Assembly: GCA_017504655.1 (NCBI GenBank)
Contig: JAFVQT010000028.1
Location: 1-64,000, forward strand
DNA: 64,000 bases
Reading direction: 5' to 3'
Origin: Clostridia bacterium
GTDB taxonomy: Bacteria > Bacillota > Clostridia > Christensenellales > Borkfalkiaceae
The notes under the pieces: generated by a model
Seen by the model: only the letters and a program-made list of their open reading frames with translations
The model's database searches: none
What the model was told of the DNA's origin: nothing
Shown: piece after piece, positions 4,960 to 46,350 of the stretch
How positions within the stretch are numbered: position 1 is the first letter of the stretch
Layout of the letters: every line of letters starts with the position of its first letter
Made by a program: the position numbers and the translations under genes

Positions 4960-7239
4960 ATGGCAAAGAAGAACGTATTGTTAAAAGGTATCGCGGTATT
5001 AGCATTAATGATTTGTGCATTAATCTGCGTGTCTTGTGCGGCAAAGTGTAAGGTCGATTTTATTGTCGATGGAGAATCTTTTACCTCTGTAATGGTAGAG
5101 AGTGGAAAAACTGTTAATTGTCCTTTAGAGAACCCAGAAAAAGAAGGGTATGTTTTTAAGTGTTGGTGCTATGATGAGGAGTGTCTTAACGAGTATGATT
5201 TTTCAACTACAATCACTAAAGCAACAACTCTTTATGCTAGGTTTGCGGAATTGTTTACAGTATCGTTTGTATATGGAGAAGGGACTTTGTTATCTGAAGA
5301 GGTTGAATACGATACATTATGTGAGATGCCAGAGAACCCACAAGTTGAGGGCTTTATTTTTAAAGGTTGGTATTTAGATGATGATTTCACTGTTGAGTTT
5401 GATTTTTCTTCTCCAATAACAGAGGATTTGACTGTATATGCACGCTTTGAAGTGTTGCACATGGTTACGTTTGTGATAGATGGCGAAGAATATGCGTGTC
5501 AAGAAGTTGAAGATGGAGAGCTTGCCACAGAGCCGGAAAAGCCTATTATAGATGGTTATGTATTAAAGAAATGGTGCCAAGATGAGGCTATGGAATTTGA
5601 GTTTGATTTTGAAACACCAATATTTGAAGATACAACGATATACGGATTTTTAGCAGAAGCATACAAAGTAAACTATGCAGATGAAGGTGGAAATATAACG
5701 TTCTCGGAGAACGTTGAAAAAGGTGTTGCTCCACAAAGACCGTCAGATCCGGAAAAAGAAGATTACAAGCTTTCTGGTTGGTATTTGGATGCTGAGCTTA
5801 CCAATCGTTTTAATTTTGATTATGAAATTGAAGACGGTACAATTTTATATCCTAAATATGAAAAAATTATAGTAATATATACTGCGGATAGCTTAAAAGA
5901 AATAGCAAACAAGCCGAATGGTTATTTCAGGCTTGGCTGTGATATTAATTTGATGGGTGAAGCTTGGACTCCAATTGTTGAGTTTTCTGGAGAATTAGAT
6001 GGAAACGGATATAAAATTGAATATTTTACTATTACAACAGATGCTGGAATTTCTGGCTTTATAGCAACGAATAACGGTATAATAAAAAACATAGTTTTTG
6101 AAGATATCGTTTTAAATGAAACATATAGTGGAGACACGTTATGGTCTGGAACTATAGTAGGTTTAAACAATGGAGTGGTTGAAAACTGCACACTTGAAAA
6201 CTACGTTTCTTCGTATGTAGCAAGTCGCACATCAAATGGTGGTTCAGCTACGTACGTAATAGGAGGTTTCGTTGGTCTTAATTATGGAACGGTAAAAGAA
6301 TGTTCAATAAGTGGAGAATTGCACGTAAACCATGTAGGACACTGTTACCAGACAGGTTATTATGATTGCTATTATTCTTCGTATTCTCATATCGGCGGAA
6401 TGTTGGGTGTAAACGAAGGAGGAAGCGTTATAGGTTGCTATGCAAATGTAAAAATAGCAACTCATTCTAAATTTACAGGCGGGCGTTATAGCTGGGGTAA
6501 TGGTCATTCAAATGGTTATACTAATATAGGTGGTTTCGTGGCACAGAATACAGGGTTGATAGACGAGTGTGGTGTTGATTATTCTATTGCTACAACAGGT
6601 ACTATGGATGGTTATTCAACCTTTACGTTGTGTATAGGTGGTTTTGTAAGAATTAATTCAGAGGGCGGGCAAATTGCTAAAAGCTTTTCAAGAGGAACAA
6701 TAACAGAAAATTGTACTTCTGCTACTGAAAAACATATAGGTGGATTTGTTCAAAATAATCAAGAAATGATAAAAGATTGTTATTCGCAAGCTGAAATTAC
6801 TACTTGCCAAACAGCTACATGTATAGGCGGTTTTGTTGGGAATTCATGCAAAACGATAACTTCTTGTTATTCAGTTGCAAAAATTAATGTTGCAACAGTA
6901 AATAATATAGGTGGCTTTCTAGGATATGCAGCTACAAATAGTACAATCAATGCGTGTGTATCATCTGCAGAAATTTATTACACATCAGCTTCTTGTATAA
7001 ATGTTTTTGCAGGTAAAACAGAATCTGGCGGATGGTATGAAAAATCGTTATACGATTTAGCAAGTGTTATTATGCAAGGGGAAATTGCTATTGAGTATGC
7101 TGAATCATTTTCAGGGATTTTAGGGAAAGAAACTAGTGAACTGTTTTCTGAGGAAACACTTTTTGATGAGTTGTTCTGGAATGTAAAAATTTGGAATTTG
7201 GATGGGGAAAATGCCCCAACCTTAAAATGGGAAGAATAA
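4960..7239 (+). CDS. Surface lipoprotein with InlB-type and GLUG-type repeats
   Basis: A 759-residue exported protein. The N-terminus has lysines, a hydrophobic stretch and CVSC-A, probably a lipoprotein signal, although the -3 position is not the usual leucine. Residues about 29-302 hold four Listeria-Bacteroides (InlB B / Flg_new) repeats, recognisable by GYVFKCW...YDFSTTIT...TTLYARF spacing. Residues about 305-690 hold repeated IGGFV-x-N-x-G-x-I-x-x-C units typical of GLUG/beta-helix surface proteins. Such proteins sit outside the cell and may bind host or polymer ligands. The gene is visibly richer in A and T than its neighbours, hinting at separate origin. It is preceded by the structured leader and followed by a strong terminator. 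Confidence 0.8.
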   Translation: MAKKNVLLKGIAVLALMICALICVSCAAKCKVDFIVDGESFTSVMVESGKTVNCPLENPEKEGYVFKCWCYDEECLNEYDFSTTITKATTLYARFAELFTVSFVYGEGTLLSEEVEYDTLCEMPENPQVEGFIFKGWYLDDDFTVEFDFSSPITEDLTVYARFEVLHMVTFVIDGEEYACQEVEDGELATEPEKPIIDGYVLKKWCQDEAMEFEFDFETPIFEDTTIYGFLAEAYKVNYADEGGNITFSENVEKGVAPQRPSDPEKEDYKLSGWYLDAELTNRFNFDYEIEDGTILYPKYEKIIVIYTADSLKEIANKPNGYFRLGCDINLMGEAWTPIVEFSGELDGNGYKIEYFTITTDAGISGFIATNNGIIKNIVFEDIVLNETYSGDTLWSGTIVGLNNGVVENCTLENYVSSYVASRTSNGGSATYVIGGFVGLNYGTVKECSISGELHVNHVGHCYQTGYYDCYYSSYSHIGGMLGVNEGGSVIGCYANVKIATHSKFTGGRYSWGNGHSNGYTNIGGFVAQNTGLIDECGVDYSIATTGTMDGYSTFTLCIGGFVRINSEGGQIAKSFSRGTITENCTSATEKHIGGFVQNNQEMIKDCYSQAEITTCQTATCIGGFVGNSCKTITSCYSVAKINVATVNNIGGFLGYAATNSTINACVSSAEIYYTSASCINVFAGKTESGGWYEKSLYDLASVIMQGEIAIEYAESFSGILGKETSELFSEETLFDELFWNVKIWNLDGENAPTLKWEE

Positions 7240-38839: not shown

Positions 38840-38853
38840 TATATCAACTTAAT

Positions 38854-38940
38854 GGTTTTCTGCGACTGACGGATTACGTGATTAACACGGTGAAACGGAA
38901 AACCAAAAGGAGAAATCCTAATAGCCGACCGTCTGGGCGC
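38854..38940 (+). promoter_or_regulatory. ZTP (pfl) riboswitch
   Basis: The region shows both conserved blocks of the pfl/ZTP aptamer. The first is GCGACTGACGGA (from 38862) inside a stem closed by GGTTTTC (38854-38860) and GAAAACC (38898-38904). The second is GCCGACCGTCTGGGC (38924-38938), matching the family's CCG..CCUGGGC end. It senses the purine intermediate ZMP/ZTP, which builds up when 10-formyl-tetrahydrofolate is short, and turns on purine and folate genes. The 3' block overlaps the left arm of the terminator, so ligand binding would prevent termination. The genes downstream (purE onward, glyA, fhs) are exactly the expected regulon. Confidence 0.85.
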
Positions 38941-38971
38941 ACTTATTCTATAGAATTAGTGCGCCCTTTTT
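38935..38971 (+). terminator. Expression-platform terminator of the ZTP riboswitch
   Basis: GGGCGCACT...AGTGCGCCC (38935-38943 with 38958-38966) plus inner TTC/GAA, followed by TTTTT. The left arm shares bases with the aptamer's conserved GGGC. Confidence 0.88.
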
Positions 38972-38976
38972 AAATT

Positions 38977-39590
38977 CTTATATACTTCGGTATGCGTCGT
39001 TTCTGCAAGATAATTTCCGACTGGGATGACCACAAAGGTCTATCCCATCCGTAAATTCCTTGCGAGCCTAGCCTACCTCGCATCTAAGAATTTAAAACTT
39101 TAAAGACTTATCTACTTCGCTATCCTGCGTTAACTGTTTCGCTTTCAAAACCTTGGTGACCAGCAAGGTCAACCAAGTCTTCTCAAGCTCACGAGCCTTG
39201 GATAGCTCGCATCTAAGAATTTAAAACTTGCTCAATAAGAGTACGGCTAAGCAAGGGTGGAGCGTCACGCTCCTGACCAACAAGGTCTACCAAGTCTTTT
39301 CAAGCTCACGAGCCTTGGTGTGCTCGCATCTAATTCTTTAATTTAAAGGCTTATATACTTCGCACACCTGCGTTTACTGTTTCAAAAACCCGACCACAAT
39401 GACCACAGAGGTCTATTGTGTCCGTCTTTTTTCACGAGCCTTGGTGTGCTCGTATCTAATCCTTTAAATCTCACTTTGTAAGAGTTAGGCTAAATACACG
39501 GATGCAACGTCACGTTGCTGACCAACAAGGTCTACCAAGTCTTTTCAAGCTCACGAGCCTTGGCTAGCTCGCATCTAAGAATTTAAAACG
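38977..39590. repeat. Cluster of three-hairpin repeat elements between riboswitch and purE
   Basis: Five units of about 115-120 nt, three full (from 38977, 39108, 39349) and two with replaced 5' halves (39228-39348, 39471-39590). Each full unit has a small 5' hairpin, a central hairpin with an invariant GACC-(5 nt)-GGTC apex, and a 3' hairpin CGAGC-loop-GCTCG followed by ATCTAA. The 5' and 3' loops are complementary: TATCC/GGATA in unit 2, CACACC/GGTGTG in unit 4. The central stem flanks also co-vary: GGGAT/ATCCC, CTTGGT/ACCAAG, CACAAT/ATTGTG, always with one unpaired base after GGTC. No coding frame or known family was recognised. Confidence 0.7.
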
Positions 39591-39667: not shown

Positions 39668-40162
39668 ATGAAAAAAGTAGGAATCGTAATGGGTAGCGAT
39701 AGCGACCTTCCAATCGTAGAAAAAGCAATGAGCACTCTTTCTTCGCTTGGTATTCCGTTTGAGGTGCACGTATATTCAGCTCACAGAACACCGGCCGAGG
39801 CAGGTGATTTTGCAGCAAACGCTAGAGCTAACGGATTTGGCGCAATTATTGCGGCTGCCGGTATGGCTGCACACCTTGCAGGTGCACTCGCTGCGAGAAC
39901 TACTTTACCTGTTATAGGTATTCCTTGTAAATCTTCTAATTTAGACGGCGTTGACGCTCTTTTGTCAACCGTTCAAATGCCTACGGGTATCCCCGTAGCG
40001 ACGGTTGCTATAAACGGGGCTGCTAACGCCGCTTTAATTTGCGCTCAAATCTTTGCTGTAGAAGACGGGGAGCTTGCTAAAAAGCTCGATGCAAAGAGAA
40101 TTGCAGATGCTCAAAAGGTGCTTGCAAAAGATGCTGAAATTTCAGCAAAATATAACGCTTAA
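39668..40162 (+). CDS. purE: N5-carboxyaminoimidazole ribonucleotide mutase
   Basis: A 164-residue class I PurE that moves a carboxyl group to give CAIR in purine synthesis. GSDSDLPIVEKA and SAHRTP are the substrate-binding motifs, and AAAGMAAHLAGALAARTTLPVIGIP completes the core. No purK is in the window, so the carboxylation partner is elsewhere or the reaction uses free CO2. It is the first gene after the riboswitch, about 700 bp downstream because of the inserted repeats. AGGAGA precedes the ATG. Confidence 0.93.
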   Translation: MKKVGIVMGSDSDLPIVEKAMSTLSSLGIPFEVHVYSAHRTPAEAGDFAANARANGFGAIIAAAGMAAHLAGALAARTTLPVIGIPCKSSNLDGVDALLSTVQMPTGIPVATVAINGAANAALICAQIFAVEDGELAKKLDAKRIADAQKVLAKDAEISAKYNA

Positions 40163-44808: not shown

Positions 44809-45993
44809 ATGAAAGAATTTGCACTTAAATACGGCTGTAACCCAAATCAAAAGCCGTCGAGAATATATATGGCAGACGGAAGCGAGCTTCCCGTAGAAAT
44901 TTTAAACGGCAGACCCGGTTATATCAATTTCCTTGATGCATTCAACTCGTGGCAGCTTGTAAAAGAGCTTAAGGCTGCAACGGGCATGGTATGCGCAACA
45001 AGCTTTAAGCACGTTTCACCAACCTCTGCCGCAGTAGGCAAGGTTTTATCCGACAAGCTTAAAAAGTCTTGCTTTGTAGACGATATCGAGGGCTTGGACG
45101 ATTCTCCGCTTGCCTGTGCATACGCAAGGGCAAGAGGAACTGACAGAATGTCTTCCTTTGGCGACTGGATAGCTCTTTCAGATGAGTGTGACGTAACAAC
45201 TGCAAAGATTATCGCGCGTGAGGTTTCAGACGGTGTTATTGCTCCTGCCTACACCAAAGAGGCTTTAGAAATTCTTTGCGCAAAGAGAAAGGGTACTTAC
45301 AACGTAGTTAAAATTGATCCGGATTTTATTCCTGCCGAAATTGAAACCAAGCAGGTTTACGGTATAACCTTTGAGCAAGGCAGAAACAATTTTAAAATCG
45401 ATCACGACCTTCTTAAAAATATCGTAACGGCAAACAAGAATTTACCCGAGGATAAGGCTATCGACCTTATAATTTCGCTTATCACATTAAAATATACTCA
45501 ATCCAACTCGGTATGCTTTGCAACCGACGGACAGGCAATCGGTGTAGGTGCAGGTCAGCAGTCGAGAATTCACTGCACAAGACTTGCAGCTCAAAAGGCA
45601 GACCTTTGGCATCTTCGCATGCATGACAAGGTTTTAGGTCTTCAATTTGCTGAGGGTGTAGGCAGACCTGAAAAGAACAACATAATCGACATTTATCTTT
45701 CTGACGACTGCGACGAGGTATTGGCAGAGGGCAAGTGGCAACAGTATTTTGCCGTAAAGCCCGAAGAATTCACGAGAGAAGAAAAAGCAGCTTATCTCAA
45801 GACGATAACCGGCGTTTCTCTTGGCTCTGATGCGTTCTTCCCATTCTCAGATAATATCGAAAGAGCATTCCGCAGCGGTGTATCCTACATAGCCGAGCCC
45901 GGTGGCTCAGTCCGTGACGATTTAGTTATCAAAGCGGCTGATGACCACGATATGGTAATGGCATTTACCGGGATGCGTTTATTCCATCATTGA
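44809..45993 (+). CDS. AICAR transformylase (stand-alone, PurH C-terminal part)
   Basis: A 394-residue protein corresponding to the transformylase half of PurH, which formylates AICAR to FAICAR with 10-formyl-tetrahydrofolate. It starts with LKYGCNPNQKPSRIYM, and contains SFKHVSPTSAAVG (catalytic Lys-His) and HCTRLAAQKADLWHLR. The MGS-like IMP cyclohydrolase domain that precedes it in normal PurH (about 200 residues) is absent, and its role is taken by PurO upstream. GGAGAG precedes the ATG. The stop is followed by a cluster of three-hairpin repeats. Confidence 0.9.
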   Translation: MKEFALKYGCNPNQKPSRIYMADGSELPVEILNGRPGYINFLDAFNSWQLVKELKAATGMVCATSFKHVSPTSAAVGKVLSDKLKKSCFVDDIEGLDDSPLACAYARARGTDRMSSFGDWIALSDECDVTTAKIIAREVSDGVIAPAYTKEALEILCAKRKGTYNVVKIDPDFIPAEIETKQVYGITFEQGRNNFKIDHDLLKNIVTANKNLPEDKAIDLIISLITLKYTQSNSVCFATDGQAIGVGAGQQSRIHCTRLAAQKADLWHLRMHDKVLGLQFAEGVGRPEKNNIIDIYLSDDCDEVLAEGKWQQYFAVKPEEFTREEKAAYLKTITGVSLGSDAFFPFSDNIERAFRSGVSYIAEPGGSVRDDLVIKAADDHDMVMAFTGMRLFHH

Positions 45994-45999
45994 CCCTTA

Positions 46000-46350
46000 T
46001 ATACTTCACAAAAGTGTGTTTCTGCTTTGTTTTTCAAACCCCGATGACCACAGAGGTCTATCGTGTCTTGTAAAACAAAGCGAGCCTTCTTTTGCTTGCA
46101 TCTAAGGCTCAATGAAATCGCTTTAAACAGCAAAAACTCACGAGCCTTGGATAGCTCGTTTCTCCACCTTTAATTTAAAGGCGTATAAACGTCGCTATCC
46201 TACGTTACTGCAAGATAATTTCCGACTGGGATGACCGAAAAGGTCTATCCCATCCGTAAATTCCTTGCGAGCCTTGGCTAGCTCGTTTCTCCACTTTTAA
46301 AACACGCTTGAAATAAGTATTAAAACACTAGGGTGGAGCGTCACGCTCCC
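46000..46350. repeat. Second cluster of three-hairpin repeat elements
   Basis: Two full units (about 46000-46105 and 46181-46295) plus a lone 3' hairpin at 46141-46158 and a 3' tail of small hairpins. Unit 6: loops CAAAAG (46009-46014) and CTTTTG (46089-46094) are complementary, and GCTTTGTTTT (46024-46033) pairs with AAAACAAAGC (46072-46081). Its apex is CGAT-GACC-ACAGA-GGTC-T-ATCG. Unit 7 has AACGT/ACGTT around its 5' loop and the GACC-GAAAA-GGTC apex. The tail has GGAGCGT-C-ACGCTCC (46335-46349). It occupies most of the gap between the AICAR transformylase and glyA genes. Confidence 0.7.

Follow-up and report, generated by a model that had tools for sequence, protein, structure and literature searches.

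We describe a family of repeats, previously unlisted and present in gut Clostridia, whose unit is one long imperfect hairpin of about 125 bp, and we conclude that the structure forms in the strand complementary to the one shown here. The window, the whole stretch of 64,000 nucleotides that was analysed, comes from a draft genome of 1.78 Mb, in which it is part of contig C24, and carries on its + strand an array of three full units (1, 2 and 4) and two half units. On one side of the array is the terminator of a ZTP riboswitch and on the other purE (39668-40162; ORF, orthologues). The riboswitch aptamer in the purE leader (38852-38945; Rfam RF01750, 46.1 bits) ends about 20 bases upstream of the array, where the first-pass annotation had seen no known family, and its intrinsic terminator (GGGCGCACTTATTC/..GTGCGCCC with a T-run, 38935-38973; inverted repeat I3 in the sequence) runs into the array, since the start of unit 1 falls inside this T-run.

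Each full unit contains a pair of facing six-base words, which we call P2, and is matched by our covariance model R1. Unit 1 (38967-39095; 126.8 bits) has the words GTATGC at 38990-38995 and GCCTAC at 39071-39076, unit 2 (39097-39224; 113.5 bits) has CTATCC at 39120-39125 and GGATAG at 39200-39205, and unit 4 (39340-39467; 133.8 bits) has CACACC at 39363-39368 and GGTGTG at 39443-39448. The first half unit (39228-39339; repeat family D1, by sequence comparison) joins an unrelated 5' part with the short palindrome GGAGCGTCACGCTCC to a normal 3' half from GACC onwards, and the second (39468-39588; partial R1 match of 21.4 bits at 39484-39570) contains the palindrome GCAACGTCACGTTGC. A further unit starts at the purH stop codon (45991-45993; unit 45986-46113, 114.1 bits) and is followed by the second unit of that array (46172-46300, 123.3 bits). 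Reading the sequence confirmed much of what had been seen in the first pass: the repeats and complementary words are there, as is the GACC-N5-GGTC apex with its one bulged base, and the imperfect match in unit 1 is indeed GTATGC facing GCCTAC with a single T.C mismatch. The words TATCC/GGATA and CACACC/GGTGTG are likewise real, the 3' coordinate of the latter having been placed one base low, but only 1, 2 and 4 are full units, the repeats at about 39228-39339 and 39468-39588 having the 3' half alone after an unrelated 5' part. Two other repeats occur among the units. Short palindromes of a second family (GGTGGAGCGTCACGCTCC, GGATGCAACGTCACGTTGC) lie between and inside units and begin the half units (window 39257-39272 and 39499-39515; locus L091, 6900-7140), and a third repeat (..TTTGCTCC.TTTTCCCAAAAATTCTT..) is inserted directly after the apex GACC in some units (L091, about 6830-6960; L214 and L369 in G001 and G007).

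The fold of the unit was derived from an alignment of 40 units (A1), the source of R1, and from 137 distinct units (A2). When all column pairs were ranked by covariation the top of the ranking consisted exclusively of nested pairs, with which RNAalifold agrees in part. In the nested structure 89.6% of the cells are paired compared to 69.7% in shuffles, none of 500 shuffles reaching the observed value, and 320 cells are changed on both sides (108 in shuffles), such changes being found in 31 of the 40 pairs of the counted nested structure. Compensatory change is thus strong and genome-wide, as had been claimed, and pairing in one strand is therefore maintained, either by selection or by arm-to-arm copying, be it as RNA or as folded single-stranded DNA. 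From the base upwards the hairpin consists of P1, a small internal loop, P2, a large conserved internal loop, P3 to P5 and the apex. In the genus of the window the unit starts with TTTAAAGG and P1 ends in TTTAAAGGCTTA/TAAGCCTTTAAA; elsewhere P1 is locus-specific. The three-hairpin anatomy of the first-pass annotation is not supported by this analysis, as the words that it took for kissing loops form helix P2, which adjoins P1 across the small internal loop and extends the outer stem. Its 5' hairpin amounts to two base pairs. Its 3' hairpin CGAG/CTCG lacks support, since neither A1 nor the 137 units of A2 contain a case in which both sides had changed together and every change is compatible with G-U, but it may exist as an alternative state. 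The apex GACC/GGTC, described as invariant, is so in the 40-unit alignment only; it reads GAAC/GTTC at purH (G003, G007) and CGTAC/GTACG in distant families. Over all loci read, some 60 distinct P2 word pairs are either fully Watson-Crick or have T.C at position 3 or 4, and beyond these there are about ten apparent chimeras. Half units join at the apex, showing that this is where half-unit exchange occurs.

The two strands are far from equivalent. Stem mismatches of the T.C type on the strand shown, which are G.A on the complement, were counted 344 times in A2 against 395 expected from independent columns, whereas G.A on the strand shown was found 28 times against 190 expected. G-U pairs are rare on the strand shown (45 observed, 387 expected) and also on the complement, where they correspond to A.C on the strand shown (126 observed, 513 expected); in tRNA acceptor stems of the same genomes G-U makes up 5.7%. 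The mismatch count omits one constant T-G pair, and the asymmetry stems in part from the pyrimidine-rich composition of the strand shown, which the expectation already includes. With RNA parameters 134 of the 137 units fold more stably as the complement, with DNA parameters 133, the gap between the strands being at least twice the shuffled difference. Read on the complement, the loops show GA/GAA, single G.A and GA/GT motifs. It is on this mismatch asymmetry and the better folding of the complement that we base the assignment of the structured strand, opposite to the one read in the first pass. As to its chemical nature, the scarcity of G-U leans towards DNA and the A-rich loops towards RNA.

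A blast search with the array gave more than 100 matches in the same genome, some of them 98% identical at other loci and many at contig ends. Searching with R1 we counted 62 units in the genome of the window, 53 to 81 in five genomes of the same genus (G001, G002, G003, G007, G010) and 45 to 54 in each of G021, G031 and G036, which represent three other genera. The distribution is patchy between relatives and many genomes are without R1 units: matches at E 1e-6 or better were found in 19 of 151 genomes sampled from the order and in 6 of 196 sampled from the class (G000 and G020 are in both samples), and weaker homologues occur in other families and orders of Clostridia. Among the matches listed by an exact-pattern scan of named genomes there were only uncultured Clostridia, one of them titled Christensenella sp., from hosts that in this list are largely ruminant and other herbivore guts. 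Rfam 15, at gathering and permissive thresholds and on both strands, matched the ZTP riboswitch only and none of the units; no carrier was found among viral contigs with the search pattern used, and the literature yielded parallels but no account of this repeat family. Many draft contigs of G000 break inside units (ends of C39, C32, C33, C21, C9 and C12), and the true copy number is therefore higher.

Each of the seven species in which the purH end was found has a unit at the stop codon there, with differing sequences and compensations even in the apex, and for this reason the copies cannot all derive from a recent single duplication. The purE leaders carry different arrays in G001, G007 and others and none in G004 and G016, and at another locus G000 and G010 have flanks that are 99% identical with units that differ along both arms. 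From these sequence comparisons and the half units joined at the apex we conclude that sites persist while the units in them are replaced. Three orthologous loci were compared and gave no clean target duplication and no clean empty-site pair, and no parent IS of the units was found.

Units dock at the ends of genes. The left neighbour is co-oriented in 109 of 120 loci; the median distance between its stop codon and the unit is 0 nt, and 79 of these 109 genes end between -20 and +15 nt from it. Most loci away from stop codons start directly after an intrinsic terminator, and a few have the ribosome-binding site of a divergent gene at the unit's start. On the right the next gene begins at a median distance of about 240 nt and is co-oriented with roughly the frequency that genes show overall; the right flanks (140) contain no positional promoter signal, and the flanks hold no promoter or target consensus beyond a few bases. 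Orientation was analysed with 260 units at 191 loci in G001, G007, G021, G031 and G036, an effective number below 191 since species share loci and these are hence not independent. In these five genomes, all of the window's family, 113 of 114 neighbouring loci have their units on the same strand, and the sole flip (G036, contig C4, between 86 and 146 kb) is located where the GC skew changes sign. In this family, the one analysed most closely, units are thus always oriented alike with respect to replication. Measured along the unit, the flanks have positive skew in 105 of 120 loci; the units themselves have negative skew in every locus. Two genomes of other families (G065, G101) have mixed orientation, so the orientation rule is not universal.

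In other families of the order the frame AC-TTCG-CAATAC-..-GCGTT with CCTTGTCTTG-CTCG-..-TCTA recurs, and stems and apex differ. P1 is different there at every locus, pairs, and usually includes the stop codon; at two loci of G101 (L401, L402) it is longer by 11 to 12 pairs, which reach into the end of the coding sequence of the upstream gene. G314, a closed clostridial genome, has homologues immediately before 23S and 5S rRNA in several operons (L420-L424), with the complement in the sense direction and with ends within 4 nt of the rRNA 5' ends: one ends at the base where 23S begins (3203/3204) and another 3 nt before 5S (6365/6368). One more homologue in this genome adjoins a masked stretch. 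Here the structured strand certainly sits inside a transcribed operon, and these homologues could possibly be a pre-rRNA processing hairpin.

We tentatively favour, at somewhat less than an even chance, the view that the units are old, dispersed, non-autonomous hairpin repeats acting as folded DNA. Near-identical copies at separate loci, patchy occurrence between relatives, chimeric word pairs, half units and whole-unit change between near-identical flanks speak for it, as do nested covariation, the scarcity of G-U, the strand asymmetry, docking and the shared orientation, and units may be mobile today. Against it, no transposase or recombinase tracks the family, orientation is mixed in G065 and G101, the persistence of the purH unit at the same spot in seven species resembles function rather than mobility, and the G314 homologues, with their structured strand transcribed, fit RNA. 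The latter also argue for regarding the complement as a structured RNA with tandem G.A motifs, an antisense or processing element that would be a mobile or vertically kept module such as a processing hairpin. The A- and G-rich, better-folding complement with its GA/GAA and GGAG/UGAG-like loops agrees with this, but its G-U pairs are far below G.A, it is antisense to the docked gene in 109 of 120 loci of the window's family, and the 140 right flanks show no positional promoter signal; we consider this explanation unlikely, though by no means negligible. An RNA of the strand shown, in which a hairpin in the 3'-UTR protects or times the mRNA, would account for the many units that begin where a co-oriented gene has its stop codon and for a P1 that often includes this codon, and it has a parallel in the REP termini that supply TAG stops (PMC3733652); we consider it improbable, as folding is poorer and G-U tolerated least on this strand, and about a quarter of the loci follow terminators or adjoin divergent genes.

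Pairing could also be kept without any function. Quasipalindrome correction, the copying of one arm onto the other during replication, keeps arms complementary and would leave few G-U pairs, a P1 specific to each locus and even extended into coding sequence as in L401 and L402, and a link between orientation and replication. Such copying would however erase the fixed T.C mismatches and the internal loops, which are conserved across families and which distant families keep although flanking neutral DNA is saturated, so neutral upkeep appears quite improbable. The originally proposed RNA of three hairpins with kissing loops is highly improbable: counting G-U as a pair, the 3' hairpin can form in nearly every unit, but the outer hairpins lack compensatory change and the nested pairs explain all covariation.

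Among known systems, chromosomal integrons resemble the units in behaviour: in 25 of 30 the attC strand that folds is found on the leading-strand template (PMC5371416), where the better-folding complement of the units is located as well. Unlike attC sites the units have no cassettes and no invariant AAC/GTT pair and are dispersed over the chromosome. The integron integrase model TIGR02249 exceeded its cut-off in none of 20 genomes, a count subject to some doubt as the genomes are incomplete, and since the integrase is missing the likeness is one of behaviour and not of membership. An integron integrase was rejected as the mover, as the only matches were weak ones, to tyrosine recombinases that occur with and without units and were matched in every control genome too. 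Hairpins at IS200/IS605 ends serve as single-stranded substrates at the replication fork (PMC6006769); the units differ in carrying no IS and in showing no correlation with tnpA. REP/BIME elements with their TnpA-REP (RAYT) are similarly high-copy intergenic palindromes, mostly behind genes, that often supply or touch the stop codon (PMC3733652). A REP measures 20-40 bp, has a GTAG foot and comes with a RAYT gene, and the units measure 125 bp and lack such a foot, so that REP membership fails on size, foot and transposase. Y1_Tnp (PF01797) is absent from the unit-rich G001, G003, G010, G021 and G031, and RAYT/IS200 was discarded as the mover as transposase and units do not correlate. On contig C15 of G007 a unit (159-286) and an IS200-type transposase gene (526-882) lie about 240 bases apart. 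ERIC elements share the size, the single long imperfect hairpin and the dispersed intergenic spread, and EFAR elements have a mosaic build. To our knowledge neither strict replication orientation nor a strand-specific mismatch code occurs in ERIC, EFAR or MITE-like families. EFAR of Enterococcus (cited in PMC3733652) and other MITE-like palindromes resemble the units in intergenic spread. The locus-specific P1 of distant families had suggested insertion into terminator stems in the manner of EFAR, a reading rejected as many loci have a complete terminator immediately to the left of the unit. A further source drawn on is PMC11023631.

If the units act as folded DNA, an enzyme supplied in trans might recognize the folded complementary strand and move or recombine them. 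Their orientation would be kept because the strand that folds better then lies on the template of the leading strand, as it does in chromosomal integrons, and we propose that copies land flush with stop codons and terminators and persist there because they do least harm or because a target is exposed at these positions. More broadly, and with rather lower probability, they could belong to an ancient Clostridia-wide element, DNA or RNA, that docks as a folded strand at stop codons, terminators and rRNA 5' ends, with stems free to vary as long as they pair, a fixed code of G.A mismatches and a dedicated enzyme reading it. If the folded-DNA view is right, uncultured Clostridia would be found to have a large and structurally strict family of hairpin repeats, oriented with the replication fork and positioned by gene ends. 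It would account for many contig breaks in these genomes, point to an enzyme that reads folded single strands, and offer natural data on how cells keep strongly folding DNA off the lagging-strand template.
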